A DNA stretch of 61,283 bases from Candidatus Methylobacter oryzae (GTDB lineage: Bacteria > Pseudomonadota > Gammaproteobacteria > Methylococcales > Methylomonadaceae), in NCBI GenBank assembly GCA_945861405.1, contig CAMAUL010000011.1:1-61283 (forward strand), read 5' to 3'. The notes under the pieces were generated by a model that did no database searches, was not told where the DNA came from, and saw only the letters and a program-made list of their open reading frames with translations. Positions 7,019 through 55,076 of this stretch are shown here, piece after piece; positions within the stretch are counted from its first letter, which is position 1; the number at the start of each line of letters is the position of its first letter. The position numbers and the translations under genes are program-made.

Positions 7019-7052
7019 AACGCTGTAAGGGGATTCGCCGCTACGATTGCAT

Positions 7053-7114
7053 GACCTACAAGGATGTGGGGAATGCAGATTTTGCATGGAGCAAAATATC
7101 TGCCCTTGCAGTCG
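7053..7114. repeat. repeat C, partial copy (C1)
   Basis: The segment shares AAGGATGTGGGGAATGCAGA, TTTTGCA and the terminal TTGCAGTCG with the full copy at 11107-11204. It lies in the gap between the convergent kinase and argB genes. Its inner part can fold into a hairpin (GCAGATTTTGC and neighbours). Confidence 0.6.
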
Positions 7115-8187: not shown

Positions 8188-9460
8188 TTAGCCGATGAAT
8201 AATCTTACCCGCCTGCAAGGTGTGGGTGACTCGGCCTTTCAGGGTTTGTCCCCAAAACGGCGTGTTGACGCCCTGGCTTTTCCAGTTTACCGAATTGACT
8301 TGCCACTCGAGCTCGGGATCAAAAACACACACATCGGCTGCAAAACCCGGCGTCAATGCGCCGCTGTCTAAACGTAGAACCCGAGCCGGATTGGCGCTTA
8401 AACAGGCGATGCCTTGCTCCAGCGTTATCGCGTGTTGGCTGACCAGTTTGAGCATTAACGGCAATAGGGTTTCCAAGGATGACATGCCCGGTTCCGTCTC
8501 CGGGAACGCGCCGAGCTTGGCGTCCAGGTCATGCGGCTGATGGTCGGAACAGATGCTGTTAATCGTGCCACCGGCCAAGCCTTGTCTTAAATACTGTTTA
8601 TCGTCTTCGGTGCGCAATGGCGGCAAGACATGATAGGCGCTGTCAAACGGCTTCATGTCGTTTTCGGTCAAATGCAGCTGGTGAATCGCGACATCGGCGC
8701 TGACCTTCAAACCGTATTTTTTGGCCTGATGGATTTTAATCACCGAACGCTTGCAGCTTAACTGGCCGAAATGCACCCGGCAGCCGGTCAGTTCGGCCAG
8801 TTCCAGGCATTGCGCCAGCGCGATGGTTTCGGCGGCTTCGGGGATGCTCGGCAAGCCGTAACGGGTCGCGACTGCGCCTTCATGGGCGCAACCGTTATTG
8901 CCCAGATCGAAATCATTGGGGCGGAACATCAGCAACAAGTCATGGCTGGCCGCATATTCCATGGCTCGTCTTAATATCAACAGGTTTTTCACCGGTTCAT
9001 TGGCGTTGCCGACCGCAATGCAGCCTGCCTGTTTTAGCGACAACATGGAACTGAGTTCCGAGCCTTCCAGTTTCTGGGTGAGTGCGCCGACCGCATAGAT
9101 TTGCGGGTAGTCGGCTTTTTCCGCCAGCTCTTTGATCAGTTCGACCACTGCGGGCGTATCGATGACCGGCGCGGTATCCGGTTGCAGGCACAGGGTGGTG
9201 ACTCCGGCAGCGGCTGCGGCAAGCACTTCGCTTTTAAAGGTCGCTTTGCGGCTGTGTCCCATGTCCCGCAAACGGGTGCTTAAATCGATGAAGCCGGGAC
9301 AGACTATCTTATCGCTGGCGTCGATGACGGTATCCGGTTTAAAACCGGCCGGTTCGTCAGTCACCGAAACAATCTTGCCGCCTGCGATATAAACGGAGTC
9401 GACGCGGTCGATGTCGTTGGCCGGATCGACAATTCTGCCGTGGTCGATGCGTATCATCAT
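8174..9460 (-). CDS. pyrX: non-catalytic dihydroorotase homologue (PyrC'/PyrX)
   Basis: Homologous to class I dihydroorotase (428 residues), but the metal site is damaged. Where active enzymes have DLHxHLR, this protein has DLSTRLRD (residues 59-66), so both zinc-binding histidines are gone. The later SDHQPHD segment is partly kept. In Pseudomonas an inactive homologue of this kind forms a complex with aspartate carbamoyltransferase and is needed for its assembly. The gene overlaps the pyrB stop codon (ATGA arrangement), which fits such a partnership. It cannot be expected to hydrolyse dihydroorotate, so a true pyrC should exist elsewhere. The final residues and stop come from repeat F. Confidence 0.88.
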
Positions 9461-10545
9461 ACAGCCCCCTTATCGCCAGGGATGGTGTGTATGTCACAAG
9501 CCGGTAGGGAACCGGCGTGACGATCGCCAGGGATGGTGTGTATGCCACTAGTCGGTAGGGAGCCAGCGTGGCGATCGCCATGGACGGTGTGCGTGGCTGT
9601 TTGCATCGCCATTGCCATGATCGCCATGCGCACCGCAATGCCGTTGCTGACTTGTTTGAGTATCACCGACTGCGGGCCGTCTGCGACTTTGGAGTCGATT
9701 TCCACGCCCCGATTGATAGGGCCGGGATGCATGACTATCGCATCGGGTTTGGCGATTTTCAGTTTTTCTTCGGTCAGCCCGAAACACTTGAAATATTCGC
9801 TCTCGCTGGGCAGCAACGCCGAAGTCATGCGCTCTTTCTGCAAGCGTAGCATCATCACCACATCGATATCTTTAAGCCCTTCGGTCAAATTGTGCGAGAC
9901 AGTTACGCCCAAGCTTTCCACATGCGCAGGCAACAGGGTTTTGGACGCAATCACCCGGACTTCGGCTGCGCCCAAGGTATTTAAGGCCTGGATCTCCGAG
10001 CGCGCCACCCTGGAATGCAAGATGTCACCGATAATGGCGACCCTCAGGTTGGAAAAATCCGGTTTGAGCTGGCGTATCGTAAACATATCCAGCATGGCCT
10101 GGGTCGGATGGGCGTGCTGTCCGTCTCCGGCATTAATTACGCTAATATGCGGTGCAGTCTGTTGGGCGATAAAGTGCGCCGCGCCGCTGAGTGCATGACG
10201 CACGACAAACATATCGACAAACATGGACTCGAGATTGCGTATGGTGTCGAGCAGGCTTTCGCCTTTTGAAGTAGCCGAGGTCGCGATATTCATATTGATC
10301 ACGTCGGCGGACAGGCGCGTGGCGGCCAGTTCGAAGGTGGTACGGGTACGGGTGCTGTTTTCAAAAAACAGGTTGACGATGGTTTTGCCGCGAAGCAACG
10401 GGACTTTTTTGACCTGATGCTCGGACATGCCTGCGAACGACTCGGCGGTATCGAGAATTTCCGTCAACAAAGTTTTATCCAGGCCTTCAATGGTTAGGAA
10501 GTGTTTAAGCTTGCCTTCGGCATTTAATTGCAGGTTATCGGTCAT
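9457..10545 (-). CDS. pyrB: aspartate carbamoyltransferase with repeat-derived C-terminal tail
   Basis: Catalytic chain joining carbamoyl phosphate and L-aspartate in pyrimidine synthesis. The carbamoyl-phosphate site [12 protein letters not shown] (61-72) and MHPGPINRG (272-280) are intact. The conserved fold ends near residue 314 ([11 protein letters not shown]). After it come about 45 residues built from element [18 protein letters not shown] (324-340) and [17 protein letters not shown] (341-357), then the start of a third unit. The total of 362 residues is longer than the roughly 335 of the Pseudomonas class. The gene lies 3 bases after pyrR and overlaps pyrX, so it sits inside an operon. 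The tail seems tolerated because it follows the last helix. Confidence 0.93.
9472..9600 (+). repeat. element A, tandem copies A1-A3 with exact 51-bp period (in pyrB)
   Basis: Two full units (9472-9522 and 9523-9573) and the beginning of a third (from 9574) share ATCGCCAGGGATGGTGTGTA and a GGTAGGGA-centred hairpin. Starts are exactly 51 bases apart, equal to 17 codons, so the pyrB frame is kept. The gene reads the antisense strand of the element. Confidence 0.9.
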
Positions 10546-10548
10546 TGT

Positions 10549-11055
10549 TTATGCCGCCGCCTCAACGGTTTCCAGATGAACGCCCAAGGGTTCAGGGCCA
10601 GTCAGTTTGATCCGCTGGCCGGAGTTTAAGGTGGTACGGGTGCCGACGCAATCGGGCTTGAGCGGGATTTGCCTGCCGTCGCGTTCTATCAGCACCGCCA
10701 GGACGATCTGGTTCGGCCTGCCGTAATCGAAAATCTCATTCATTGCGGCGCGTGTCGTTCTGCCGGTATAAAAAACATCATCGACCAGGATAATATCGCG
10801 GCCTTCGATATGCGTCGGCAATTCGCTGGGCTTTACATTGGGATTGACGCCGATTTGCGAAAAATCGTCCCGGTAAAATGAAATATCCAGCAGCCCCAAC
10901 GGTTCGCTGATATTTAGCCGCCGGTGCATCTGTTCGGCAATCCACACTCCGCCGGTACGTATGCCGATCATCATCGGATTAACCAGCTTTCTCTCGGCAA
11001 TAATGCGCTTTAGCCCGGCTTCCAGGTTATTTAATAATTCGGAAATATCTAACAC
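10549..11055 (-). CDS. pyrR: PyrR, pyrimidine regulatory protein / uracil phosphoribosyltransferase
   Basis: A 168-residue protein of the type I phosphoribosyltransferase fold. The PRPP-binding motif IILVDDVFYTGRTTRAAMNE is intact (near residue 94-113), as is IGIRTGGVWIAEQM in the N-terminal part. In Gram-positive bacteria PyrR binds pyr mRNA and also makes UMP. In Pseudomonas-like bacteria it can act on pyr expression in another way. Here it is first of pyrR-pyrB-pyrX, with only 3 bases before pyrB, so co-regulation of the pathway is likely. Upstream of it lies a 294-base gap filled with repeats C and F, with no obvious PyrR attenuator. Confidence 0.92.
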   Translation of the reverse strand: MLDISELLNNLEAGLKRIIAERKLVNPMMIGIRTGGVWIAEQMHRRLNISEPLGLLDISFYRDDFSQIGVNPNVKPSELPTHIEGRDIILVDDVFYTGRTTRAAMNEIFDYGRPNQIVLAVLIERDGRQIPLKPDCVGTRTTLNSGQRIKLTGPEPLGVHLETVEAAA

Positions 11056-11106
11056 TTAATGATCCTGTTTGGGTAACTACTCAGCGATGCTGGCTTCATA
11101 ATGGAA

Positions 11107-11204
11107 CTCGGCAATTGCTCCTGCATTGCTCTACCTCCTGCATAACCCACAGGGATGTGGGGAATGCAGATTTTGCAGGGAGCAAAAATCTGTCCATGCA
11201 GTCG
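11107..11204. repeat. repeat C, full-length copy (C2)
   Basis: This is the longest copy of the family. It begins CTCGGCAATTGCTCCTGCAT, TGCTCTACCTCCTGCAT, continues through ACCCACAGGGATGTGGGGAA and ends CCATGCAGTCG. Short copies at 23679, 44867 and 55003 lack the middle section of about 50 bases. It lies between ruvX and pyrR. Confidence 0.75.
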
Positions 11205-11343
11205 ACGGATGACACTGATTAGGCCGATTTACACGGATTTTTTCTTTTTTGCTTATCACGAGGGAACCGGAGGAATAATTACTTGTAATATGTTTAATTT
11301 TATCAGCAATTATCCGCCAAATCCGTGTCATCCGTGTTCTATT
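11205..11343. repeat. repeat F copy 2
   Basis: Ends ACGGATGACACTGATTAGGC and AATCCGTGTCATCCGTGTTC are complementary in part and resemble the copy at 8070-8187. Together with repeat C it occupies all of the 294-base gap between ruvX and pyrR. I see no gene in this gap. Confidence 0.6.
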
Positions 11344-11349
11344 TTTTAA

Positions 11350-11886
11350 CTAAGCAGTGTGTTCATTCAGCCAGGTTTGCAATATAAGCTGGGCGGCGAG
11401 TTGATCTTGCACTTCCCAGAGTTTGCTGGCGCTGACGCTGACCTCGTCAAACAACAGTTGTTTGGCTTCGAATGTCGACAGGGTCTCGTCCTGCTGAAAA
11501 ACCGGCAGCTGATAGCGGCCTTCCAGCTGCCTGCAAAATTTTAACATGCGTGGTGTTACCGGGTTATCCGAGCCGTCGGCCTGCTTTGATATGCCGACCA
11601 CCAAACCTGCAGGGCGCCATTCCTGTATCAGTTTGCCGATGGTTTCCCAGTTGGGGTTTTGATTGATCGAGCGGATGGTTTGCAGCGGACTTGCAGTGGC
11701 TGTGGTTGTTTGACCGACGGCTGTGCCTATCTTTTTAGTGCCAAAATCAAAACCCAGAAAGGTATCGGCGTTGGTTTTGGTCAGTAAGGGGTCTTGCATA
11801 GTTTGTGTCGCCAGGGATGGTGTGTATGCCGCAAACCTGCCGGGAGCAGGTGCGGCGTCTGTTTTGTATTCAAAAGGATCAGCCAT
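11350..11886 (-). CDS. ruvX: RuvX/YqgF Holliday-junction-type nuclease with N-terminal element A insert
   Basis: An RNase H-fold nuclease (YqgF family, pre-16S rRNA processing or junction resolution). The fold begins at about residue 43 with LGFDFGTKKIG, whose Asp is a catalytic metal ligand; LVVGIS and QDETLSTFEA follow. Length is 178 residues against about 140 in the family. The extra N terminus is MADPFEYKT, then AAPAPGRFAAYTPSLA (residues 11-26) from element A, then a linker. I keep the start at 11886 because it overlaps the yqgE stop by 8 bases, a typical coupled start, so the element seems to have entered just after the ninth codon. A start at the internal ATG near 11799 would remove the insert but has no visible ribosome site. 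Confidence 0.88.
   Translation of the reverse strand: MADPFEYKTDAAPAPGRFAAYTPSLATQTMQDPLLTKTNADTFLGFDFGTKKIGTAVGQTTTATASPLQTIRSINQNPNWETIGKLIQEWRPAGLVVGISKQADGSDNPVTPRMLKFCRQLEGRYQLPVFQQDETLSTFEAKQLLFDEVSVSASKLWEVQDQLAAQLILQTWLNEHTA
11807..11857 (+). repeat. element A copy A4 (in ruvX)
   Basis: Contains GGATGGTGTGTATGCCGCAA and the hairpin arms ACCTGC/GCAGGT around CGGGA. It differs from copy A5 in tonB by one or two bases over 50. The gene reads the opposite strand. Weak TTTGT direct repeats flank it (11802-11806 and 11863-11867). Confidence 0.9.
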
Positions 11887-12442
11887 GCCCTGCCGGAGCG
11901 GTCAACAGATTAATATCGATGCCTATCTGTTCGGCTGCCGCATTCCAGCGTATGTTAACAGGGGTATCAAATAAAACCTGTTTGCCGCAAGGCGTGTTAA
12001 GCCAGGAATTATCCATAATTTCTTTTTCTAATTGTCCTGCGCCCCAACCGGCATAACCTAATGCTACCAGATACTGTTCAGGCCCCTCGCCTGCTGCAAT
12101 GGCTTCAAGCACATCACGGGACGTGGTCAGGGAAATGGTTTCTGAAACAGCCATGGTCGCATGCCAGTCGCCGCCGGAAGTATGTACCACGAAGCCGCGC
12201 TCTTGTTGTACCGGGCCACCGGCAAAAACGGGCGCTTCAGCCGCAGCGGGCGCAGTGACTTTGATGTCCATCTGCTTGAATATTTCACCCAGCTTCATGT
12301 CCGTTGACCGGTTAATGACGATACCCAGTGCGCCGTCTTCATTGTGTTGGCACAAATAGGCAACCGTATGAAAAAAGTTGGGATCCGCCAGATTGGGCAT
12401 GGCGATAATAAACTGGTTATTAAAATAAGTAGCTTGGCTCAT
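11879..12442 (-). CDS. yqgE: UPF0301/AlgH family protein YqgE
   Basis: A conserved cytoplasmic protein of unknown biochemical role that commonly sits beside ruvX in gammaproteobacteria. The family pattern is clear: YFNNQFIIAMPNLADPNFFHTV at the start (shown here in part), GALGIVINR, FAGGPVQQERGFVVH and LGYAGWGAGQLEKEI. I take the ATG at 12440-12442 (MSQATYF), giving 187 residues. An ATG 15 bases upstream is possible. The stop codon overlaps the ruvX start, indicating coupled translation in the run gshB-tonB-yqgE-ruvX-pyrRBX. Confidence 0.92.
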   Translation of the reverse strand: MSQATYFNNQFIIAMPNLADPNFFHTVAYLCQHNEDGALGIVINRSTDMKLGEIFKQMDIKVTAPAAAEAPVFAGGPVQQERGFVVHTSGGDWHATMAVSETISLTTSRDVLEAIAAGEGPEQYLVALGYAGWGAGQLEKEIMDNSWLNTPCGKQVLFDTPVNIRWNAAAEQIGIDINLLTAPAGHG

Positions 12443-12482
12443 AGGTCTTAGTATCAAAGTTTATGGCGACTTAAGCAACAGT

Positions 12483-13412
12483 TTATCGCGAGGTCATGCC
12501 TGATTCATCAGAAAATTTCCAAACCCGGGTAATCACCAGAACATCCAGTTCTTTTCGCAAATCCGTAGGTAACGGTGCAAAGGGCGCGCTCATACGGACA
12601 ATTCTTTTGGCCGCCTCGTCCAGCTCCGGATTTCCCGAAGACTGGTTGATGCGTATGCTGTAAATGCTCCCGTCTGCTTTAATGCCGACATCCATGGTTA
12701 AGGTGCCGGAAAAGTTTTTCTTGGCCGCCACTTCCGGGTAATTAAGGTTGCCGGTGCGCTCTACTTTTTCTTCCCAATCCTTCATGTATTGGGCGGCAAT
12801 GTATTTATGAGCGCTGACCGAGTCAACAAATTTTATTTTGGTTTGCTCGGCACCCTGCTGGCTGAGTCTGATTTCAGTGCCCAATTGGGCAATTTGTTGT
12901 TGCAACATCTCCGCCGACAGCTGCGGGTGCTTTATCGCCATGGATGGTGTGTATGCCGCAAACCTGCCGGGAGCAGGTGCGGCGTCAGCATGCTTTCCGT
13001 TATCGGGCTTAGTTGCGGTAACGATCTTTTTTTCCGCCTTTATCTGGGTGATGACTTTTTTCGCGGCTTTAGGTTTGCTTTGTTCGGGCTCGCTCTTTTT
13101 TACCTGCTTGGGCTGATTAGTACCCTGGCTGGGCACTTGTTGCGGGGGCGGTTCCGGCTTTGCGTTTTGTTCGCCTGCGCCAATCTGATTTTCCTGAGCC
13201 AAAAACTGCGCCTTTTCGGGCGCTTTTTGGGTCGGCATATTGACCAGGGTAATATCAATCGAGCGGCTGATTTCCTCCGGGTGCGGCGCTGTGAAATTGA
13301 CTCCCAGCCCGATCACAACATGAATGACGGCCGCTAAAAATAAGGCTATCAGTAATGAGTCATTATTGGACAGCTCCGAAGGCGGCTCAAACAGTACCTG
13401 ATGTGTTCTCAT
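12483..13412 (-). CDS. tonB: TonB-like energy transducer with element A in its linker
   Basis: A 309-residue TonB-family protein that would pass proton-motive energy from the inner membrane to outer-membrane receptors. It has one N-terminal membrane segment (about 20-40), then a Pro/Lys/Gln-rich periplasmic linker (about 60-160), then a TonB C-terminal domain (about 225-300) with GTLTMDVGIKADGSIYSIRI and RVWKFS. Element A lies in the linker as AAPAPGRFAAYTPSMA (residues 144-159), a place where extra residues should do little harm. The gene begins 5 bases after the gshB stop. Its leader sequence is also element A (copy A6), so its ribosome-binding region is repeat-derived and weak. The family is also linked to gshB in Pseudomonas. 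Confidence 0.88.
   Translation of the reverse strand: MRTHQVLFEPPSELSNNDSLLIALFLAAVIHVVIGLGVNFTAPHPEEISRSIDITLVNMPTQKAPEKAQFLAQENQIGAGEQNAKPEPPPQQVPSQGTNQPKQVKKSEPEQSKPKAAKKVITQIKAEKKIVTATKPDNGKHADAAPAPGRFAAYTPSMAIKHPQLSAEMLQQQIAQLGTEIRLSQQGAEQTKIKFVDSVSAHKYIAAQYMKDWEEKVERTGNLNYPEVAAKKNFSGTLTMDVGIKADGSIYSIRINQSSGNPELDEAAKRIVRMSAPFAPLPTDLRKELDVLVITRVWKFSDESGMTSR
12934..12984 (+). repeat. element A copy A5 (in the tonB linker)
   Basis: Contains ATCGCCATGGATGGTGTGTA and the same hairpin as copy A4. A TGCTTT hexamer lies on both sides (12928-12933 and 12991-12996). This may be a target duplication, in which case the inserted unit would be 12934-12990. Confidence 0.9.
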
Positions 13413-13413
13413 T

Positions 13414-13464
13414 ATCGCTATGGATGGCGTGTATGCCGCGAACCTGCCGGGAGCAGGTGCGGCG
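13414..13464 (+). repeat. element A copy A6 (gshB 3' end and tonB leader)
   Basis: Contains TATGGATGGCGTGTATGCCG and the ACCTGC/GCAGGT hairpin. It supplies the last residues and the TAG stop of gshB on the minus strand and extends to one base before the tonB ATG. Compared with A5, one base change (GCC to GCT) makes the in-frame TAG. Confidence 0.9.
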
Positions 13465-14407
13465 GCAAGACGGTTTCAATATGATCCATCAGTTGGCCGC
13501 AAATATTTAAGCCAAACTGACGATCCAGCTCCTGAACGCAAGTCGGACTGGTGACATTAATTTCAGTCAGCGTATCGCCGATCACATCAATGCCGACAAA
13601 AACCAAGCCTTTTTCCCGTAATGTAGGCCCTACCTGTTCTGCAATCCAGCGATCCCGCTCGGTTAATGGACGGCCTTCGGCCCGTCCGCCTGCCGCCAAA
13701 TTGCCTCGGGTTTCGCCCTGAGCGGGAATACGCGCCAGAGCGTACGGTATGACTTCGCCGTTAACCAGCAAGATACGCTTATCGCCGTCGACAATTTGCG
13801 GCAGGTATTTTTGCGCCATCACATAGCGGCTGTTGTACTGGGTCATGGTTTCCAGAATCACGCTGAGATTGGGATCGCCCTGGCGCAGATGGAAAATGGA
13901 AGTGCCGCCCATGCCGTCCAGCGGTTTTAAAATGATTTCGCCCTGCTCCAGCAAAAAACGCCTGATTCGATCAGGCTCTCTGGCAACCAGTGTTTCCGCA
14001 CAACACTGCGGAAACCATGCGGTAAAAAGCTTTTCATTGGCATCCCGCAACGACTGCGGTTTGTTGACTACATAAACGCCCATGCTTTCCGCACGCTCCA
14101 GCAAGTAAGTGGCATAGATATATTCCTGATCGAAAGGCGGATCCTTACGCATCATGATCACATCCAGCTCGTCCAGGGCAATATCCTGCTCGGCGGTAAA
14201 TTCGTGCCAGTTTTTTTCATCCCGCTGAACTTTAATCGTCCGCGTTCTGGCATACGCCCTGCCGTTTCGGAGGAACAAGTCATTGAGCTCCATATAATGC
14301 AGCTCCCAGCCTCTGGCCTGAGCTTCAAGCAGCATCGCAAAACTGGTATCTTTCTTTATGTTGATATGGCCGATGGAGTCCATGACCATGCCGAGCTTAA
14401 TGGGCAT
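13418..14407 (-). CDS. gshB: glutathione synthetase
   Basis: Joins gamma-glutamylcysteine and glycine using ATP, the final step of glutathione synthesis. It is closely similar to the E. coli enzyme: IKLGMVMDSIGHINIKKD at the start, LDVIMMRKDPPFD, VNKPQSLRDANEKLF, IILKPLDGMGGTSIF (ATP-grasp) and TEINVTSPTCVQE. I chose the ATG at 14405-14407 (MPIKLG), which has AGGA upstream; the frame is open ten codons further. The native protein should end near ETVL. The last 14 or so residues (PPHLLPAGSRHTRHP) and the stop are element A. Start of the run with tonB-yqgE-ruvX-pyr genes. Confidence 0.95.
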   Translation of the reverse strand: MPIKLGMVMDSIGHINIKKDTSFAMLLEAQARGWELHYMELNDLFLRNGRAYARTRTIKVQRDEKNWHEFTAEQDIALDELDVIMMRKDPPFDQEYIYATYLLERAESMGVYVVNKPQSLRDANEKLFTAWFPQCCAETLVAREPDRIRRFLLEQGEIILKPLDGMGGTSIFHLRQGDPNLSVILETMTQYNSRYVMAQKYLPQIVDGDKRILLVNGEVIPYALARIPAQGETRGNLAAGGRAEGRPLTERDRWIAEQVGPTLREKGLVFVGIDVIGDTLTEINVTSPTCVQELDRQFGLNICGQLMDHIETVLPPHLLPAGSRHTRHP

Positions 14408-14512
14408 TATTTTTCCTGGTGATTGTTTTAGGCGCAAGGCTAAAGGCTATAATTATTACACCTTTTGCCCTTCGTCTTGCGCCTTTTATCTTATTCATTT
14501 TATAGATTCTTA

Positions 14513-14541
14513 TTTACCTTGAAAAGAATTTTTGGTATAAA
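14513..14541 (+). promoter_or_regulatory. possible sigma-70 promoter for rpmB-rpmG
   Basis: TATAAA at 14536-14541 with a weak -35 candidate TTACCT at 14514-14519, 16 bases apart, lies 44 bases before the rpmB start in an AT-rich gap. Confidence 0.35.
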
Positions 14542-14584
14542 GCTCGGCTAACTTTTGAATTTAGGCACGCATTAGGGGTTAATC

Positions 14585-14821
14585 ATGTCCAGAGTATGTC
14601 AGGTAACAGGCAAGCGCCCAGTTACAGGTAACAACGTTTCACACGCTAACAACAGAACTAAAAGACGCTTTTGTCCAAATCTGCAACACCACAGATTCTG
14701 GGTAGAGAGCGAAAACCGCTGGGTTCGCCTCAGAATTTCCACCAAAGGCATGCGCATTATTGACAAAAACGGTATTGATGCTGTTCTTGCTGATTTGCGT
14801 AAAGCTGGCTACAACGCTTAA
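14585..14821 (+). CDS. rpmB: 50S ribosomal protein L28
   Basis: A 78-residue basic protein of the large ribosomal subunit. The start [20 protein letters not shown] and the middle [20 protein letters not shown] match the bacterial L28 family through its full length. It is followed after 12 bases by rpmG, the usual pair in gammaproteobacteria, and both are likely made from one mRNA. Confidence 0.97.
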
Positions 14822-14833
14822 GAGGATAGAAAA

Positions 14834-14989
14834 ATGCGCGATAAAATTAAATTGGTTTCGACCGAAGGCACCGGGCACTTCTACACAACTACAAAAAACA
14901 AACGAACTATGCCTGAAAAAATGGAGATCAAAAAATTCGATCCTGTTGTTCGTAAATACGTTATTTATAAAGAAGCCAAAATCAAATAA
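14834..14989 (+). CDS. rpmG: 50S ribosomal protein L33
   Basis: A 51-residue frame beginning [20 protein letters not shown], with GAGGAT ahead of the ATG. The rest ([20 protein letters not shown] and [11 protein letters not shown]) matches the L33 family at full length. It lacks the CxxC zinc pairs, so it is the zinc-independent form. It is co-transcribed with rpmB, 12 bases upstream. Confidence 0.96.
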
Positions 14990-15012
14990 TTATTTGGCTT
15001 TAAAAGCTTCTC

Positions 15013-15043
15013 TCCGGCTTGTGCTCCATGGGCACAAACCGGA
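15013..15043 (+). terminator. hairpin downstream of rpmG, possible terminator
   Basis: Arms TCCGGCTTGTGC and GCACAAACCGGA pair with one mismatch around a 7-base loop. No T-run follows directly, so termination strength is doubtful; it could equally be a dispersed repeat. It lies between the convergent rpmG and the gene ending at 15118. Confidence 0.35.
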
Positions 15044-15117
15044 CGTAGGCATAACCCGACTCGGCGACTTTGACTTCGGATTATACTTTTGTTTTTTGTC
15101 CTACGGGCGAAGTTGAT

Positions 15118-16560
15118 CTAATTTCCCCCTCCATTTAGCTTATCCAGCACTTGGGTTAGCTTCTCCATTTGCTTGTGCAATACCCGGCACTGCTTTTCAG
15201 CATGTTCCTTGTCAAATTCCAGCCTCATGCACTTTTCATTGAGTTGTTGATTGGTATTTTTGAGCGTTTCATTTTCCAATTTAAGCGCGCTTATTTGATC
15301 TGCCAATTTATCAACTGGCTGTTTTCTGTCACTTTCCCGAGGAACCCTTTCCGCAGTTGCATCGTTGGCAAGAGGCGCTTCTTGTTTCGGCACAGGCGTA
15401 ATATCCGGCTTTATCGCCAGGGATGGTGTGTACGCCGCAAGCCTGTCGGGAACAGGCTCGGAGATCGTTAGACTCGGTGCGTCTGCCGCAAGCTCACTGG
15501 CTTCAGGTGCCGCAGGCGCAAGACTAGCCATTCCGCCTTTCAAAATCACTGCCTCAATCTTATTCCTGAGCAATAAAAATGCCGCCGCTTCACTGGTCTT
15601 GCCATCATGGCAAACAACAATGACCGGCTTTTCATGGCTTAATGTTTTAAGCTGCATCCTTAAGGAAAAAAAAGGCGTGTTGATGCTGCCATCAAGGTGA
15701 TGGCTTTCATAGTCATCCTGTGAGCGAACATCTAACAAAACCGCGCCCTGCTTTACCGCATCCTGCATTCCTGCATAATCGACAAACTTTAAAGAGGGTT
15801 CTTTTATTAAGGATACAAATTGTTTTTTATCCAGGCGCAATAAAGAAATATCCGTCAGCGCGGTAATAGTTACGTTTCTTGGTGCACCGGAAAGTAATGC
15901 GTCCTCGCCAAAGGTGTCGCCCTTTGCCAGCTGGGCTAATTTAATCTCTTTGGCATTGGGCGATGGCTTGCGCGTTAACAAGCATTGCCCGTTTTTAATC
16001 AGATAATAATAATCTCCAGTGCCGCCTTGCTCGAGTATGGTTTCTCCCTTTTTGAAATGAATGGCCTCCAAACCCATTAAGATTTTTTGTAAATTAGCGG
16101 GAGGAAGGCGTTGAAAAATAGGCGCTCTTAATAACGCCGTCATCCAATCATCTGGATCGCCTTCGGTCTCATCAATAACCATGTAACTGTTGTCCTCTTT
16201 TTTGTCAGCAAAGGAAGGTAAGCTCTTAACAATATCCGTATTCAGCCGTAAAAAACGCACCTTTCCGTTCGCGACTGCATCTATTTTTCTTGGGATCTGG
16301 TGTGCCAGCGCAAACCTTGCAGAATCGCTGCTTGCAGCAATAATCTCAACGACTAGCCCATCCGCCTGAAGCGTAACTTCGCCACTGATCAGATAAACAA
16401 GTTGCAAATTTACATCGCCTTTTTTAAACAAGACTCCGTCTTGTATTTCCTCGACCGTCATTTTGGCGCATAACGCATTAAACTGAGCGCTGGGCAATGT
16501 TGCGAGCGGGATTAGCTTACGAATGATCAGTCCATCTTCAGAATTGACGTCTACAGTCAT
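15118..16560 (-). CDS. double cNMP-binding domain / rhodanese / coiled-coil protein with element A
   Basis: A 480-residue soluble protein with an unusual order of parts. A degenerate cyclic-nucleotide-binding fold (about 15-120) is followed by a better-preserved one (about 142-255, with KKGETILEQGGTGDYYYLI and FGEDALLSGAPRNVTI). A rhodanese domain comes next (about 262-350) with an active-site Cys317 in IVVCHDGKTSEAAA. A flexible Ala/Pro linker containing element A (PDRLAAYTPSLA, about 371-382) leads to a coiled coil (about 413-475). No DNA-binding domain is seen, so it is probably a redox or sulfur-responsive signalling protein; that is inference. It is convergent with rpmB-rpmG and divergent from degQ. 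Confidence 0.8.
   Translation of the reverse strand: MTVDVNSEDGLIIRKLIPLATLPSAQFNALCAKMTVEEIQDGVLFKKGDVNLQLVYLISGEVTLQADGLVVEIIAASSDSARFALAHQIPRKIDAVANGKVRFLRLNTDIVKSLPSFADKKEDNSYMVIDETEGDPDDWMTALLRAPIFQRLPPANLQKILMGLEAIHFKKGETILEQGGTGDYYYLIKNGQCLLTRKPSPNAKEIKLAQLAKGDTFGEDALLSGAPRNVTITALTDISLLRLDKKQFVSLIKEPSLKFVDYAGMQDAVKQGAVLLDVRSQDDYESHHLDGSINTPFFSLRMQLKTLSHEKPVIVVCHDGKTSEAAAFLLLRNKIEAVILKGGMASLAPAAPEASELAADAPSLTISEPVPDRLAAYTPSLAIKPDITPVPKQEAPLANDATAERVPRESDRKQPVDKLADQISALKLENETLKNTNQQLNEKCMRLEFDKEHAEKQCRVLHKQMEKLTQVLDKLNGGGN
15413..15463 (+). repeat. element A copy A7 (in the cNMP/rhodanese gene)
   Basis: Contains ATCGCCAGGGATGGTGTGTA followed by CGCCGCAAGCCTGTCGGGAA. The hairpin arms have changed together (GCCTGT/ACAGGC), so the stem is kept. 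The gene reads the opposite strand. Confidence 0.85.
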
Positions 16561-18058: not shown

Positions 18059-18129
18059 GGGCTGGCCTTGTGCTTGCCCAGTGCAACCTCTTGGCCTAGC
18101 CTAGGGCAACCACAAGGGATTGCCCCTAC
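18055..18129. repeat. repeat D copy 1, ends GTAGGGGC/GCCCCTAC
   Basis: A 75-base inverted-end repeat with the inner words CTTGTGCTTGCC and GGGCAACCACAAGGGATTGC. The other copy is at 28141-28211. The TAG in its first bases is the stop codon of degQ. Confidence 0.8.
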
Positions 18130-23678: not shown

Positions 23679-23726
23679 TCGGCAAGTTGCTCCTGCATTG
23701 CTCTACCTCCTGCATCCATGCAGTCG
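23679..23726. repeat. repeat C, short copy (C3)
   Basis: Reads TGCTCCTGCATTGCTCTACC then TCCTGCATCCATGCAGTCG, the ends of the full copy C2 joined without its middle. It lies in the folB-plsY gap, and its translation creates a false N-terminal extension of plsY. Confidence 0.8.
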
Positions 23727-23784
23727 TAAGTATCAGGGAAACGTCCCTTGCTTACAAGTCCAAAATAATGAAAAGGTTCACGTA

Positions 23785-28144: not shown

Positions 28145-28211
28145 GGGCAGGTCTTGTGCCTGCACTTTCTGCCCTAGCCCTATTTGGGCAACCACAAGGG
28201 ATTGCCCCTAC
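28141..28211. repeat. repeat D copy 2
   Basis: Begins GTAGGGGCAGGTCTTGTGCC and ends GGGATTGCCCCTAC, matching copy 1 at 18055 in both ends and in GCAACCACAAGGGATTGCCC. Its first TAG is the stop codon of yqeY. Confidence 0.85.
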
Positions 28212-42162: not shown

Positions 42163-44850
42163 TTGACTAAACGACCAAAGATACAAAAAACCCACCATTC
42201 CTCACCTCCATGGCATCTTCTGGAGCCCTGGCAGACCGCTGCGTGGCTTAAGGTCGATCCCGAAAAAGGCCTCAATCATCAGGAGGCGAAAGAACGTCTC
42301 GAAACTTACGGCCCTAACGCCATCCAGGAGCAAAGCCGCCGGGGGCCGATTCGGATGTTTTTTGGGCAATTCGGCGATTTTATGATCATCGTGCTGATTT
42401 TGGCCTGCATCGTTTCGGGTTTGGTCGGCGATTTGACGGATACAGTCGTCATCCTCGTGATCATCATATTGAACGCGATCATCGGCTTCATCCAGGAGTA
42501 CCGCGCGGAAAAAGCCGTAGCCGCGCTAAAACGGATGTCCAGCCCCACCGCGCGGGTGCTGCGCGAGGGAGAAATCCAATCCATAGCAGGACATGAGCTG
42601 GTTCCCGGTGATCTGGTCATGCTTGAGGCAGGCAATATCGTCCCGGCCGATCTCAAACTATTGGATGTGGCGCGGCTCAAGGTGGAGGAGGCCGCGCTAA
42701 CCGGCGAATCGCTGCCGGTCGAAAAATCAGGGGCGTTGATACGTGAGCTGGATTCGCCGCTCGGCGACCGTCTCAATATGGCTTACAAGGGGACTATTGC
42801 GACCTATGGCCGTGGCGTCGGAATTGTCATAGCCACCGGGATGGACACCGAACTCGGCAAAATCGCCGAGCTCTTGCGCCAGGGAAAAGAGACTAAAACC
42901 CCGCTGCAACAACGCCTTGCCAGCTTCGGCATGCGCCTCGCCCTTTTGGTTTTGGCGGTCTGCGCGATCATTTTCGTGGTGGGTTTGTTGCGCGGTGAAC
43001 CGCCCGTGCTGATGTTTCTGACCGCCATCAGCTTAGCGGTGGCAGCCATCCCGGAGGCTCTGCCTGCCGTGGCCACGGTGACCTTAGCGATAGGCGCGCG
43101 CAAGCTGGTCACCAAAAACGCGCTGATCCGTCGCCTGCCCGCCGTGGAAACTTTGGGTTCGGTGACCTTCATCTGCTCGGACAAGACCGGCACGCTGACG
43201 CAAAACAGGATGCATGCCGAAGCGTTCTACGTCGAAGAGCGCTTGCGGGAAGGCATAGCTGGCGATTTTCCGGCCCCGCTGTTACGGGCGCTGGCCCTGA
43301 ATAACGACGCCCGCCGCGACCACGACGGGCAACTGTTGGGCGACCCGACCGAAATCGCCTTGTACGAAGCGGCCGAAAGCGTGGGCTATATTGGCGCCGA
43401 TCTGTCCAAGGACGCGCCGCGACTGGATGAGATCCCTTTCGATTCCGAACGCAAACTGATGACCACGCTGCATCAGGAACATGGCGAACTGGTCGCTTAC
43501 ACCAAAGGCGCGCCGGAGAATGTGCTGCCTCGTTGCGTTAGCCTATGGGGCGGCGACGGCCCGCAGCCTCTGCCGAAGGAAACGATACTGGCCGCCGCCG
43601 AGCAAATGGCTAAGGAAGGCCTGCGGGTGCTGGCTCTGGCGTACCGGCAGTTCCCTGAACAGCCGCAAACGCTAGATGCCGATTCAATCGAAACCGGCCT
43701 GTGCTTCCTGGGCTTGGCGGGACTGATGGATCCTCCACGACCCGAAGCCAAAGAAGCGGTCGCGCTGTGCAAGACCGCCGGGATCACGCCGGTCATGATC
43801 ACCGGCGATCACCCGGCCACAGCCCGCGCCATCGCAATCAGGCTAGGCATTGTCGATGACGGCTGCAAGGTGCTGACCGGGACTGAGCTGGCGCGGATGA
43901 GTCTTGAGGAATTCGAGAAGCAAGTCGAAGACGTGCGTATTTATGCCCGCGTTGCGCCGGAGCAGAAGATTAAAATCGTCAAGGCGCTACAGGACAGGGG
44001 GGAATTCGTAGCGATGACCGGGGACGGCGTCAACGATGCCCCGGCTTTGAGAGCCGCCAATATCGGCATCGCGATGGGCAAGATCGGCACGGATGTGGCG
44101 CGGGAGGCATCGCACATGGTGCTTCTGGATGATAATTTCGCCACCATCGTCACCGCTGTGCGCGAGGGGCGGCGGATTTTCGACAACATCCGCAAGTTCA
44201 TCAAATACACGATGACCAGCAACTCGGCAGAGATATGGACGCTGTTTCTGGCGCCTTTTCTGGGCTTGCCGCTCCCTTTACTGCCCATCCATATCCTCTG
44301 GATCAATCTGGTCACCGATGGCCTGCCGGGGCTTGCCCTGGCCGTCGAACCGGAAGAGCTCGGCATCATGCAACGCCCGCCGCGCCCGCCGCAGGAAAAC
44401 ATTTTTGCGCAAGGCATGTGGCAGCACATCCTGTGGATCGGCCTGTTGATGGGCGGCGTTTCCTTATTCGCCCAAGGCTGGGCATATTTTACCGGTTCCG
44501 CCCACTGGCAGAGCATGGTGTTCACCGTGCTGACCCTGTCGCAGATGGGGCATGTGCTGGCGATCAGGTCGGAACGGGAATCGTTCTTCAGTCAGGGACT
44601 GTTTTCCAACAAGCCGCTGTTGGGCGCGGTGCTGTTGACCTTCGGCCTGCAAATGGCAGTGTTGTATGTGCCGGTCTTGCAGCCTATCTTCAAGACCGAG
44701 GCCTTGAGCTGCGATGAGCTATTGATCTGTCTGGCGCTTTCTTCGGCCGTATTCTTTGTGGTGGAAATCGAAAAATGGATGCGCCGCCGGGGCTGGATTT
44801 ACCGAAACGGGCCGCAAAATTCAAAGCAAGCTTTGCCTACATGGATGTAG
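42163..44850 (+). CDS. P2-type cation ATPase, SERCA-like (P-type ATPase 1)
   Basis: An 895-residue ion pump with the full set of domains: TGES (actuator, about 180), the phosphorylation site CSDKTGTLT (Asp near 339), [15 protein letters not shown] and [14 protein letters not shown]4 reads AAIPEALPA, and TM5-TM6 read [10 protein letters not shown] and [13 protein letters not shown]. These keep the Glu, Asn and Asp ligands of calcium pumps, so Ca2+ is the likely substrate. The start is a TTG at 42163, with AGGAGA upstream. The C-terminal end lies in repeat sequence, which provides the last codons and TAG. First of three different P2 ATPases in 13 kb. Confidence 0.88.
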
Positions 44851-45248
44851 GTAAGGGGCGTGAGCACGACTGCATGGATGCAGGAGGTAGAGCAATGCAG
44901 GAGCAATTGCCGAGGAGCGGAAGCTTTGAACTCCGGCATCTAATTTTTCCGGAGTCCAAAGCTTGCTTTGGCTGCTTCAAAGTCGGCATAAGGATTTAAA
45001 CCTAAAAACCGCAGTTGAATATTCCAAAATCCCGTTCCCCCTGAGCGAAATAAGCCCCGTGTACGTGGTAAGGATCAGTACAAACCGCTTACACAGACTT
45101 CAACTGCGCTTAGGATAATACCTAAATCATTACGAACCTATTATTGGGTGTTAGAATACGATCATAATCGTGCGTTTGCCCAATAGCTGACATCTGAAAA
45201 ATGCACAAAACGAATCCGTCAAAAACATTTTCTATTTAAGAGGACACT
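44851..45248. other. 398-bp gap holding repeat C copy C4 and other repeats
   Basis: The segment 44867-44914 is a reverse short copy of repeat C (CGACTGCATGGATGCAGGAG to GGAGCAATTGCCGAG). After it comes an inverted pair AAGCTTTGAACTCCGG and CCGGAGTCCAAAGCTT (about 44930-44966). The remainder up to the UPF0182 start is AT-rich, with possible promoter bases but no open frame that looks like a protein. GAGGAC just before 45249 is the UPF0182 ribosome site. Confidence 0.6.
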
Positions 45249-52002: not shown

Positions 52003-54858
52003 CTATTTTTTAAAACTCCAACACAATATCAGCCACAAAAATTTGCGCAATTCCTCAAGGATCAGTACAAACGCGGCAACACCGGTCGCAATCAGCCAAT
52101 CCATCTGCGTCAATGTTGTGGTATGGAATATGACTTGCGCAGGCGGCCAGTGAATGACCAGTACCTGCAATGAAATCACCCCGAAAATAGCCAGCCAGAG
52201 CATTCTATTGGAACAGAAATGCCGGTTAAATGCTGTGCCTTTTTCAGCGCGGGCATTAAAAACGTTGAATACCTGAAACAGCACGAAGGTAGTGAACGCC
52301 AGCGTTGTGGCGTGCGCCGCATTCCCCCCGCCCGGCAGGCTTGCGGCATACACACCATCCGTCTGTAAGTCGTAATATAATACCCCCAAGGTACCGATAG
52401 CCATGGTCAATCCGTAGCTGAAAAGATTGCCGAAGCGTCGCAATGACAGTATCCGCGCGTCAGGGTCACGCGGCGCTTCGTCCATGCTGCCGGTGCGAAC
52501 GGGATCAACGCCTAGCGCCATGGCCGGTGGGCCGTCCATGATGATGTTAATCCACAGCAATTGTACCGCAGTAAAAGGCACAGGCATGCCCAGCAGCGGT
52601 GCGCAAGCCACCGTCAGGATAGCGCCGATATTGGTGGAAAGCTGAAAGCGGATAAATTTGACCATGTTGTCGTAAATCCCCCGCCCTTCCTTGACCGCCT
52701 TGACGATGGTGGCGAAATTGTCATCGGTCAGTATCATCGTCGCCGCTTCCTGAGCGACATCGGTGCCGGTGATGCCCATGGCGATGCCGATATCGGCGCT
52801 CTTCAGGGCAGGGGCATCGTTGACGCCGTCGCCGGTCATCGCAACTATGTGACCGTCTGCTTTTAAGGCGTTGACAATCCTGACCTTCTGTTCAGGCGCA
52901 GTGCGGGCGAAGACGGCGATGGCGTTGATGCGTGCGGCCAGAGCACGATCATCCAGAACAGCCAATTCCTTGCCTTCAATGACTTCACCCGCCAAGCCCA
53001 GTTCCTTGGCAATCGCCTTAGCGGTCACCTTTTGGTCGCCGGTGATCATCTTGACTGCGATACCGGCCTGCTGGCAGAGTTTGATGGCGTCGCGGGCTTC
53101 GGCTCTTGGCGGATCCATCAGACCGACCAGCGCGACAAAGGTAAGATCCTCGATGTATTGAAACAGATCGCCATCAAGCTGCATGGTGTCGGCGGGCAGC
53201 GTTCGCACTGCCACTCCCAATACCCGCAAACCAGTGCTGGCCATTGTTTCGTTTTGTGCCAAAAGTTTGTCTCGTTTAACAGGCAACGAGTTTCCATTGC
53301 CATCAACTACCGAATGACACATTTTGAGCAGCACTTCCGGTGCGCCTTTAATGAACACCTTGATCTGATCGCCATGACGATGAAATGTCGCCATGAATTT
53401 ATGCTCGGCATCAAAAGGGATTTCGGCAATTCGGGGTAGTTGGCTGTTTGCCTGTTCCTTGTCGATACCGCCTTTAATGGCAAGCACCAGTAATGCGCCT
53501 TCCATCGGGTCGCCCACCACCTGCTTCCCTTGCAAATGGCTGTTATTGCACAAAGCCAGCGGCAGCAGCAAATCCGTCATATCGGCGACAGGCAAAATCT
53601 CGCCGGTAACTTCATAACCTTCGCCGCTAACGCTATAGCTTTGACCTTTATAAAAGATTGACCGCGCAGTCATCTGGTTGACCGTCAAGGTACCGGTCTT
53701 GTCGGTACAAATAACCGTGGTACAGCCTAGCGTTTCCACGGCGGCCAGACGTTTGACGATGGCCTGCTGACGCGCCATGCGGTGCATCCCCAGCGCAAGG
53801 GTTACCGTAACGACCGCCGGTAGGCCTTCGGGGATGGCTGCCACGGCCAGTGCGATGGCGGTATAAGCCGTCTGAATCAGCGGCTCCCCTCGCCACAGGG
53901 CGCTGACAAACAAAACGACAATGACCGCCAGCGCAATCAGCGCCATACGTTTACCCAGACTGTCGAGCTGTATTTGCAGCGGCGTGGCCCCGTCTTCTGT
54001 TTGCGTTAACAGGTTCGCCAGTTTGCCGATTTCGGTTTCCATGCCGGTGGCAGTCACCACCATTTCAGCACGGCCACGGGTGACGGCATTATTCATATAA
54101 AGCATGTTGCTGCGTTCGGCGAGAGGCAGTGATGCCATCGTAAGTGCCTGTTTCTGCTTGGTAACTGGCATCGACTCGCCGGTCAACGAGGATTCATCGA
54201 CTTCCAGTGTGTGTGCAGTGATAATGCGGCCATCAGCGGGTATTTTTCCGCCAGCTTCGAGAATGACAATATCCCCCGGCACCAGCTGGTCGGCAGGCAG
54301 TTCAATATTACGACCGTCGCGGCGTACCTCGGCTAGCAACGCAAGCATCTTTTTAAGCGCAGCCAGCGATTTTTCGGCCTGAAATTCCTGATAAAATCCC
54401 AATAGGCCGTTAATGACGACCACCACCAGAATCACTACGCCGTCTTTTAAATCACCGATAGCGGCAGCCAGGATGGCCGCTGCAATTAGCACCAGAATAA
54501 GGAAGCTTTTGAACTGGGATAGCAGCAAATGCCAGGCGGGGCGCGGCGGCTTCTCGGTCAGCCGGTTGGGGCCGTAACGATTCAGCCGATCTGCGGCAGC
54601 TATTTGGCTCAAGCCGGTGGCTAGCTCCGAAACCTGTTCATGGAGCGCTTCTTCCGCTGACAGGGTATGCCAGGCAGGTCTGGTTACTGCGTCTGGAGAG
54701 GATGCGGTATTGGCCTGTTCAGAGCGACGTTTATAAAAACAACGCCTTGCGGCTAACCAAATCAATGCGCCTGAAATTGCGACTACTATGGCGATTGCCG
54801 GTAAGGCAGCTATGTCTATAAGATAATCATTATTGAATAAATCTTTAACCAGTGGCAT
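52003..54858 (-). CDS. P2-type cation ATPase, PMR1/SPCA-like, with element A in a loop (P-type ATPase 3)
   Basis: A 951-residue pump with an extra N-terminal membrane segment (about 15-37) before the usual cation-ATPase N domain. It has TGES, CTDKTGTLT (Asp near 386), KGAPE, MITGDQKVTA and [14 protein letters not shown]4 is AAIPEGLPA and TM6 is WINIIMDGPPAMALGVDP. The IMDGPPA form marks secretory-pathway-type Ca2+/Mn2+ pumps. Between TM7 and TM8 residues about 832-848 (TDGVYAASLPGGGNAA) are element A; relatives have a short loop before HATTLAFTTFVLFQ. The loop faces outside the cytoplasm, where extra residues are easily accepted. Confidence 0.88.
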   Translation of the reverse strand: MPLVKDLFNNDYLIDIAALPAIAIVVAISGALIWLAARRCFYKRRSEQANTASSPDAVTRPAWHTLSAEEALHEQVSELATGLSQIAAADRLNRYGPNRLTEKPPRPAWHLLLSQFKSFLILVLIAAAILAAAIGDLKDGVVILVVVVINGLLGFYQEFQAEKSLAALKKMLALLAEVRRDGRNIELPADQLVPGDIVILEAGGKIPADGRIITAHTLEVDESSLTGESMPVTKQKQALTMASLPLAERSNMLYMNNAVTRGRAEMVVTATGMETEIGKLANLLTQTEDGATPLQIQLDSLGKRMALIALAVIVVLFVSALWRGEPLIQTAYTAIALAVAAIPEGLPAVVTVTLALGMHRMARQQAIVKRLAAVETLGCTTVICTDKTGTLTVNQMTARSIFYKGQSYSVSGEGYEVTGEILPVADMTDLLLPLALCNNSHLQGKQVVGDPMEGALLVLAIKGGIDKEQANSQLPRIAEIPFDAEHKFMATFHRHGDQIKVFIKGAPEVLLKMCHSVVDGNGNSLPVKRDKLLAQNETMASTGLRVLGVAVRTLPADTMQLDGDLFQYIEDLTFVALVGLMDPPRAEARDAIKLCQQAGIAVKMITGDQKVTAKAIAKELGLAGEVIEGKELAVLDDRALAARINAIAVFARTAPEQKVRIVNALKADGHIVAMTGDGVNDAPALKSADIGIAMGITGTDVAQEAATMILTDDNFATIVKAVKEGRGIYDNMVKFIRFQLSTNIGAILTVACAPLLGMPVPFTAVQLLWINIIMDGPPAMALGVDPVRTGSMDEAPRDPDARILSLRRFGNLFSYGLTMAIGTLGVLYYDLQTDGVYAASLPGGGNAAHATTLAFTTFVLFQVFNVFNARAEKGTAFNRHFCSNRMLWLAIFGVISLQVLVIHWPPAQVIFHTTTLTQMDWLIATGVAAFVLILEELRKFLWLILCWSFKK
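52317..52363 (-). repeat. element A copy A9 (in P-type ATPase 3)
   Basis: Read on the minus strand: GGATGGTGTGTATGCCGCAA, GCCTGCCGGGCGGG. Unlike the other copies, this one is read in its sense direction. Its left end (ATCGCCAG) is altered and its right hairpin arm is changed. Confidence 0.85.
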
Positions 54859-55076
54859 TGCAGTGTGTCTCCATTGTTACGTGCAAGGTATCAGCCGAAA
54901 AGGTACGCACAGCGTACCCTACGAACTCCGTGGTTGGGTTAAGCGCGTCTTTTTGCGCCGTAACCCAACACATTCGTGTCGCAAATGTCGGGTTACGCTA
55001 CGCTCGGCAATTGCTCCTGCATTGCTCTACCTCCTGCATCCATGCAGTCGTAACCCAACGTGGCTACAGGGTAAAA
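54859..55076. repeat. repeat-filled gap with short repeat C copy (C5)
   Basis: It holds a GTACGCACAGCGTACCCTAC palindrome, an inverted pair GTTGGGTTAAGCGC/GCGCCGTAACCCAAC and, at 55003-55050, the short form of repeat C (CTCGGCAATTGCTCCTGCAT to CCATGCAGTCG). No gene is seen. Possible promoter bases for ATPase 3 would be at its left edge. Confidence 0.7.

Follow-up and report, generated by a model that had tools for sequence, protein, structure and literature searches.

Element A, a 51-nt palindromic repeat residing in genes of Methylobacter, is very probably a coding-tolerant mobile element

Element A is a 51-nt palindromic repeat of Methylobacter, a group of methane-eating bacteria. It is very probably a new palindromic mobile element that is tolerated in coding sequence, mobilised in trans and filtered by selection. 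The window, which means the whole stretch of 61,283 nucleotides analysed here, is contig C11 of a genome of 3.58 Mb in 154 contigs (the own genome). Comparison of the copies and their sites shows the hairpin conservation, the target, the precise insertion, the differences between species and the frame bias described below, and we infer from them mobility in trans and purifying selection. Element A would be a short non-autonomous palindromic element moved in trans by some enzyme, and insertions that break the frame or encode a bad peptide would be purged by purifying selection. The survivors would sit in three frames, whose short peptides are polar or rich in Ala/Gly/Pro and fall at tolerant sites; with a length of 51, a multiple of three, and tolerable peptides, insertions in these frames would persist.

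The unit of element A is 51 nt, namely 17 codons. It consists of AT, hairpin 1 (CGCCAGGGATGGTG), a short linker, hairpin 2 (GCCGCAAGCCTGTCGGGAACAGGCGCGGC) and a final G, and the consensus accordingly starts with AT, contains two stem-loops and has the 3' end GCGGCG. Hairpin 1 pairs as CGCCA-GGGA-TGGTG, and hairpin 2 pairs as GCCGC-AA-GCCTGT-CGGGA-ACAGGC-GCGGC. Among 57 distinct copies, 96.5% of the 912 helix cells are paired, compared with 87.7% after shuffling, and when the hairpin structures are slid, the pairing drops to 24–51%. Changes on both sides were observed in 12 of the 16 base pairs of the helices. Cells with such changes number 87, compared with 24 in shuffled copies, and the covariation seen in the copies was not attained in any of 500 shuffles. 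These results strongly suggest that both hairpins are maintained through compensatory changes. Since the hairpins covary although the protein frame differs from copy to copy, they are conserved as nucleic acid.

The original prediction emphasized that the copy at 11807–11857 contains no stop codon in any of the six reading frames. Translation bears this out, and the family consensus and its dimer are likewise stop-free. Six open frames over 51 bp are uncommon as had been stated, but they are not striking, because 9–13% of comparable 51-mers have them: 9.3% of mononucleotide shuffles of this copy (1861/20000), 11.9% of dinucleotide shuffles (2377/20000), 12.2% of shuffles keeping both hairpins (2441/20000) and 12.7% of GC-matched 51-mers from the window (293/2300). 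Stops in other copies had been named as evidence to the contrary; 39 of the 59 own copies are open in six frames, and 20 have a stop in at least one frame. When columns are shuffled among the copies, 35.9 and 36.7 of 57 copies are expected to be six-frame open, compared with 39 observed. Selection for six-frame openness in all copies was considered and dropped, as the effect vanished on this shuffling. The openness of the unused frames is not specially maintained. Six-frame openness is thus not the key property it was taken for: the column shuffles account for the number of open copies, and mainly three frames are inhabited. That it is a coincidence of a GC-rich palindrome, with no role, has somewhat less than an even chance in our estimate and is compatible with the preferred explanation. 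The shuffled 51-mers and columns speak for such a coincidence, whereas a cruder random-substitution null expects only 17.6 of 57 six-open copies against the 39 observed, and nearly every copy is stop-free in the three used frames, in a unit whose length is a multiple of three. It is the latter two features that allow element A to live in genes.

At least 59 distinct copies were found in the own genome by nhmmer with a profile of the own copies, and counts based on these 59 leave out six further copies from longer stretches. A covariance model was built from 57 copies, excluding two partial ones, and up to 150 candidates were scored per genome. At E ≤ 0.001, this model gave 86 matches in the own genome and 2–97 in each of 23 genomes of the genus, with 39 in G019 and 40 in G018. 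The latter two are not labelled as metagenome-assembled genomes, and element A is therefore no artefact of metagenome binning. BLAST against 301 genomes of the order matched 59 of them: 20 belong to the same genus, 37 are others of the family, and two lie outside the family with weak matches. The more distant named operon loci (L066–L129) gave no match. The exact 24-base core was unmatched in viral contigs, and a 77-base query was unmatched in plasmids and phages. Rfam, searched with window positions 9000–16000, gave three sub-threshold matches, none of them at element A. Two of the three element A peptides, searched against PDB sequences, matched no natural chain and gave only weak matches to designed proteins. 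According to this distribution, element A appears to be a Methylobacter element that is also found in some related methanotroph genera.

The copies within the window and their host genes are listed in Table 1. The gshB frame is stopped by a TAG within its copy, and at the gshB end of the named operon loci, relatives have 51 nt, 50 nt or nothing. Among 26 readable named loci, the tonB site is also filled in L056 only. The pyrB end carries zero to three units across the named operon loci, and the closest PyrB relatives, with 95–98% identity, are from Methylobacter, a few being labelled Methylococcaceae. Other repeats were also observed in the window. A second family with the core ATGCAGGAGGTAGAGCAATGCAGGAGCAATTGCCGAG is located at 7048–7096, 11107–11187, 23687–23729, 44866–44914 and 55003–55053. 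It is apparently intergenic, and the copy at 23687 lies in a 5' ORF extension ahead of the glycerol-3-phosphate acyltransferase domain. A 258-nt inverted similarity between 43945–44202 and 52651–52908 is possibly paralogous ATPase coding sequence.

Table 1. Positions of element A copies and of their host or neighbouring genes in the window.
Feature	Position	Strand	Remarks
Element A, copy of the original prediction	11807..11857	+	51 nt; very probably in the non-coding algH-ruvX gap
Element A, unit 1 of head-to-tail dimer	9472..9522	+	near the PyrB C-terminus; antisense frame of the ...IHTIPGD type
Element A, unit 2 of the same PyrB dimer	9523..9573	+	
Element A in TonB	12934..12984	+	in frame, AAPAPGRFAAYTPSMAIK; net insertion 51 nt
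Element A at the GshB C-terminal end	13414..13464	+	
Element A in cNMP-binding/rhodanese protein	15413..15463	+	between Pfam domains
Partial element A in P-type ATPase	52331..52362	-	model positions 5-36; sense frame DGVYAASLPG
ruvX, from the start codon of relatives (MQDPLL...)	11350..11799	-	element A excluded; Pfam RuvX
pyrB	9457..10545	-	hosts the dimer 9472-9573; Pfam
tonB	12483..13412	-	hosts the 12934 copy; Pfam
gshB	13418..14437	-	hosts the 13414 copy; Pfam
cNMP-binding/rhodanese gene	15118..16560	-	hosts the 15413 copy; Pfam
P-type cation ATPase gene	52003..54858	-	hosts the partial copy; Pfam

In the own genome, 56 of the 59 copies lie within ORFs of at least 100 aa, and 52 within ORFs of at least 200 aa. 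A GTAG-type REP of this genome served as a control: of 30 exact copies, out of 46 found, 12 and 9 lie within such ORFs, respectively. Outside the own genome, 48 of 51 loci lie in ORFs of at least 100 aa, compared with 90 of 100 positions shifted by 700 bases. Element A is located in genes about as often as chance placement would give, where ORF overlap overstates coding at gene ends, as in the case of RuvX. According to Pfam matches of the host ORFs, 16 insertion loci lie inside a single domain envelope. The hosts are PurH, SufB, M3 oligopeptidase, AroA, HolC, FAD_binding_2, SpoU, class I/II aminotransferase, the ValS anticodon domain, Pyr_redox_2, Glyco_transf_9, Polysacc_synt_2, class II tRNA synthetase, HDOD, DUF7939 and P-type ATPase (partial copy). 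In DnaN, RapA, MinC and others, the copies lie between domain matches or at their edges.

Empty sites were surveyed in four relatives using a composite query made of the flanks of 36 own sites, and the following counts hold among the matches listed. Of 144 site-by-genome pairs, 108 were readable. The net insertion length is 0 in 52 pairs, 51 in 13 and 102 in 4, and the remaining 39 show small offsets or other lengths; six of the seven −1 offsets come from the insert boundary chosen at two sites. At 32 of the 36 sites, one or more relatives come to within 9 nt of the empty length, and the remaining four sites are pilin, unk, hdod (no reading) and gnat2. The expectation that insertion lengths fall on multiples of three is supported, with 69 of 108 pairs at 0, 51 or 102 and 88 at some multiple of three. 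At the protein level, DnaN has 34 extra residues in the own genome, 17 in G006 and G021, and none in G008 and G018, and this site falls between residues 97 and 102 of 7rzm. ValS has 34 residues in the own genome and G018, 17 in G008 and G021, and none in G006. In PurH, 17 residues are present in the own genome, G006 and G008, and none in G018 and G021. SufB has 17 in the own genome, 34 at a neighbouring loop position in G008, and none in G018 and G021. RecO has 17 in the own genome, 34 in G021 and none in G018; AroA has 17 in the own genome and none in G021; OpdA has 17 in the own genome and G008 and none in G018. The reading frames at these seven aligned sites are stop-free, and the stops seen in ValS are upstream of its start.

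The same comparison bears on whether the blocks are ancestral and were precisely lost wherever a relative has an 'empty' site. More than one species carries the insert at several sites, such as PurH in the own genome, G006 and G008, and ValS in four of five genomes, as ancestry would predict. However, 52 of the 108 comparisons are exactly empty among the matches listed, the family recurs at unrelated sites, the SufB blocks of two species lie at slightly different places in the same loop, and the distant operon loci L066–L129 are devoid of matches. Ancestral presence with precise loss is therefore very improbable. Insertion of a mobile element explains that relatives keep empty sites, and the original description of a 51-nt unit that is stop-free in the used frames and inserts cleanly in frame agrees with these results. 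The prediction of gene-tolerant insertion seems largely correct. The phrase 'safe to insert anywhere' is too strong, because WT^NNNG sets the site and the peptide matters.

The copy with which the original prediction began was assigned to RuvX, and this assignment very probably does not hold. A RuvX motif pattern was matched in the window and in 16 of 27 relatives scanned (11 without a match). In these 16 relatives, the sole in-frame ATG is located 13–15 residues ahead of the motif; a stop immediately precedes this ATG in 12 of the 16. The ruvX of the window has the equivalent ATG at 11797–11799, and a chance upstream ATG reads through element A. The copy at the AlgH-RuvX position overlaps no 100-aa ORF in seven relatives (L050, L051, L053, L054, L056, L058 and L061), and the lengths of the AlgH-RuvX gap vary freely among relatives, without steps of three. 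According to the ruvX starts of the relatives, the ORF-free copies and the free gap lengths, the copy at 11807–11857 is very probably intergenic, that is, non-coding. In the available text of PMC3733652, it is noted that N-terminal REPs may look coding and yet be non-coding, and the cases given there parallel that of element A beside RuvX.

The frame in which the element is read was determined at the 42 own loci that overlap an ORF, counting also RuvX and the copies at gene ends. The sense offset 0 frame is used at 18 loci, the antisense offset 0 frame at 11, and the antisense offset 1 frame (AAPAPGRLAAYTPSLA type) at 9. The antisense IHTIPGD-type frame in PyrB and the sense DGVYAASLPG frame in the ATPase were correctly predicted. 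As to the use of four frames, also predicted, the three main frames hold 38 of 42 loci and the other three hold 4. For WTNNNG sites in the window genes, 56.5% would be expected in the main frames (p=1.8e-6), and a chi-square test over the six frame classes gives p=4.5e-4. Among loci at a distance of 40 aa or more from either ORF end, 27 of 28 are in the main frames (p=2.6e-6), and at 60 aa or more all 26 of 26 are. The single gene-internal exception at 40 aa belongs to class s1, to which the copy in the class II tRNA synthetase also belongs. In other genomes, the three main frames account for 45 of 48 loci lying in ORFs. The rare frames encode peptides with Cys, Trp, Met or His. No stop interrupts the used frame in 55 of 56 copies, which follows in part from the assignment of each copy to its longest overlapping ORF, and unused frames are open in 259 of 286. 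The profile of the survivors is a length of 51 with one of three tolerable peptides, rather than six open frames per se.

Two other explanations of copies in genes were weighed against the frame data. The inserted RNA may be bypassed or removed and so remain untranslated, as with the palindromic inserts in Magnusiomyces mitochondria. In favour of this, the hairpins of element A lie in essential genes, and translational bypassing of palindromic inserts exists, as described in the accessible part of PMC6649704. Bypassing would not require net lengths that are mostly multiples of 51, as found among the matches listed, and would not need three favoured peptide frames; moreover, 55 of 56 copies have no stop in the used frame, although the way in which ORFs were assigned contributes to this. 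We consider untranslated inserts extremely improbable. The peptides may instead be useful, as domesticated linkers or surface loops kept by positive selection, and the three preferred frames and the sites filled in several species are in line with this. However, the host proteins are unrelated, so are the three peptides, and the ORF share equals that of the shifted controls (48/51 and 90/100), as near-neutral insertion predicts. Positive selection is quite improbable as the cause.

The target of element A was deduced from the flanks of 43 own insertion loci, where arrays were merged, outer ends were used, and the partial ATPase copy was omitted. Position −1 is T in 43 of 43 loci, position −2 is W (A or T) in 40 of 43, and position +4 behind the element is G in 35 of 42. 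Among 51 loci outside the own genome, taken with distinct flanks from the best-scoring matches and in part orthologous to each other, the corresponding numbers are 50, 49 and 43. The G at +4 is found in 15 of 17, 9 of 11 and 9 of 9 loci of the three main frame classes, and thus is not a codon effect. These results show a (T/A)T^NNNG target, with the element seated between T and NNNG. No target duplication was detected in the flanks or in the inspected empty sites (for example, TT^TCAG in tonB).

Element A occurs in both orientations, single or head to tail: the own-genome loci comprise 30 single, 12 double and one triple. With the sequence WT^ATCG, the left end of a unit already in place is a target site itself. 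Head-to-tail arrays would grow via insertion at this left end, for which the evidence is mixed. The shared right unit in valS and recO agrees with left growth, whereas the shared left unit in dnaN disagrees, and the other array sites compared gave no clear outcome. Exchange within arrays is likely to be involved also, because some arrays share one first-hairpin variant. Slippage was rejected as the only origin of arrays, since neighbouring units often differ by at least 9 bases (valS, dnaN). In the arrays of L039:2753-2903 and L252, all units have the changed first hairpin CTCCA..TGGAG and the second hairpins differ, which suggests exchange or copying between neighbouring units. The valyl-tRNA synthetase gene L046:728-3709 has two insertion sites, one with two full units and the other with one full and one partial unit.

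The enzyme that would move element A was sought among Y1 HUH transposases. In the 3.2–3.3 kb loci around four own Y1 genes, no element A match was found, so that none of these transposase genes is linked to it; by eye, they sit among other palindromes. Across the 23 genomes of the genus, compared by presence of Y1 matches irrespective of orthology, Y1 presence does not separate high-copy from low-copy genomes. With GC skew as a weak proxy, no strand bias was seen: 26 of 46 own loci lie on one side, or 25 of 43 once three duplicate entries are dropped, and in G019 8 of 18 do so. We also considered that element A is an ordinary REP moved by a resident RAYT (a Y1 HUH transposase), its coding location being incidental. 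The short palindrome with two hairpins, the fixed left-flank bases and the lack of a visible target duplication resemble such a system, and Y1 matches are present in 23 of 23 genus genomes. On the other hand, the four own Y1 genes have other palindromes at their sides (by eye) and no element A nearby, element A has no GTAG/GGAG tag, and the REP of the same genome is much rarer in ORFs (12/30 against 56/59). Furthermore, G010 with 97 model matches and G005 with 42 have one Y1 match each, with very different scores. An ordinary REP moved in this manner is unlikely.

REPs with their own putative transposases were also observed. The GTAG-type REP GGGCAACCACAAGGGATTGCCCCTAC is located at 18104–18129 and 28186–28211 of the window and has 46 genome copies at up to three mismatches. 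The Y1 transposase match G000:C63:13843 adjoins copies of GGGCAACCACAAGGGATTGCCCCTAC, and the two are likely to form a REP-RAYT pair. At L033 and L032, two more Y1 genes are flanked, by eye, by their own palindromes GTAGGGTGGGCAACGC... and GGAGTGCAAGC..., so that several REP-RAYT systems may coexist.

Host proteins such as the sliding clamp and valyl-tRNA synthetase are usually essential. In Methylobacter, tens of copies, mostly in genes, differ between close relatives in such proteins, and large-scale in-frame coding palindromes would thereby extend beyond genome-reduced intracellular bacteria. It becomes testable in a free-living organism how, and by what enzyme, mobile DNA lengthens proteins without destroying them. 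For annotation, a mobile insert can be the cause when Methylobacter orthologues differ by 17 or 34 residues, and element A can lead to misplaced start codons, as in RuvX. More tentatively, element A may form a class of its own among mobile elements, ultra-short and adapted to coding DNA, with a quantum of 17 codons, a two-sided WT^NNNG target recreated by its left end, and an enzyme unrelated to known RAYTs. Such a class would be a continuing source of 17-residue insertions in methanotroph core proteins; we regard this as possible rather than probable.

In the titles and abstract openings of the open literature, subscription papers being outside this scope, no publication on element A in Methylobacter was found. 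The new features are the WT^NNNG target without visible duplication, the head-to-tail arrays, the filtering by frame and the absence of a linked transposase among the own Y1 genes. IS200/IS605-type and RAYT HUH systems have hairpins, no target duplication and fixed left-flank bases, and IS200/IS605-type insertion prefers the lagging-strand template. Element A is similar in that no target duplication was seen and the left flank is nearly fixed (T 43/43 at −1, W 40/43 at −2). It differs in that it also prefers a right-flank base, has no linked transposase found and has shown no strand bias by GC skew, a weak proxy. MITEs of DDE transposons have terminal inverted repeats with target-site duplication, a combination not found with element A, whose flanks and inspected empty sites show no duplication.

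According to the available text of PMC3733652, GTAG/CGTC REPs have an unpaired tag at one end of a single stem-loop, are mostly intergenic and form mainly head-to-head dimers, head-to-tail ones being negligible (for CGTC). Element A has no GTAG/CGTC tag, has two stem-loops, and is mostly located in ORFs and head to tail; in REP-RAYT pairs the copies flank the RAYT gene, which is not the case at the four own-genome Y1 loci. Intragenic REPs are described for Opitutus, Rickettsia, Thauera, Xanthomonas and others in the same text, where the letters 'methylo' are absent at any word start (PMC3733652). Like element A, these are short palindromes located in ORFs, DNA-repair and tRNA-synthetase genes among them, and many occur in free-living hosts (PMC3733652). 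Wolbachia palindromic elements and Coxiella QMITEs are small repeats that in some cases lie in genes, for QMITEs occasionally in frame, as given in the accessible parts of PMC3767692 and PMC5896051; the in-frame cases there concern hypothetical proteins or a gene 3' end (PMC5896051/PMC3767692). They belong to other lineages than element A and are set apart by description, not by sequence. PARCELs are palindromic DNA with a 25-residue motif in tandem arrays in ORFs without assigned function, according to the available part of PMC2996958. Unlike this tandem motif in unassigned ORFs, element A is inserted in housekeeping enzymes.

The closest known counterparts, together with the intragenic REPs, are the RPEs of Rickettsia, work on which is reportedly due to Ogata and co-workers. 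RPEs are palindromic and peptide-coding and lie in frame in many unrelated Rickettsia genes, as described in the accessible parts of PMC10969869, PMC3767692 and PMC6649704. Their length is given as about 150 bp, with 44 insertions in R. conorii, nearly half of them in ORFs (PMC10969869, available text), or as 100–150 bp (PMC3767692, available text). Compared by description, not by sequence, element A too is a palindrome in frame inside unrelated protein genes, with empty sites in relatives. It differs in its 51-nt length, which is below that of RPEs, its free-living methanotroph hosts, its WT^NNNG target and its head-to-tail arrays. Element A may be described as an RPE-like coding palindromic repeat with neither the RPE length nor the REP tag, and it looks like an unusually gene-tolerant free-living counterpart of the Rickettsia coding palindromes.
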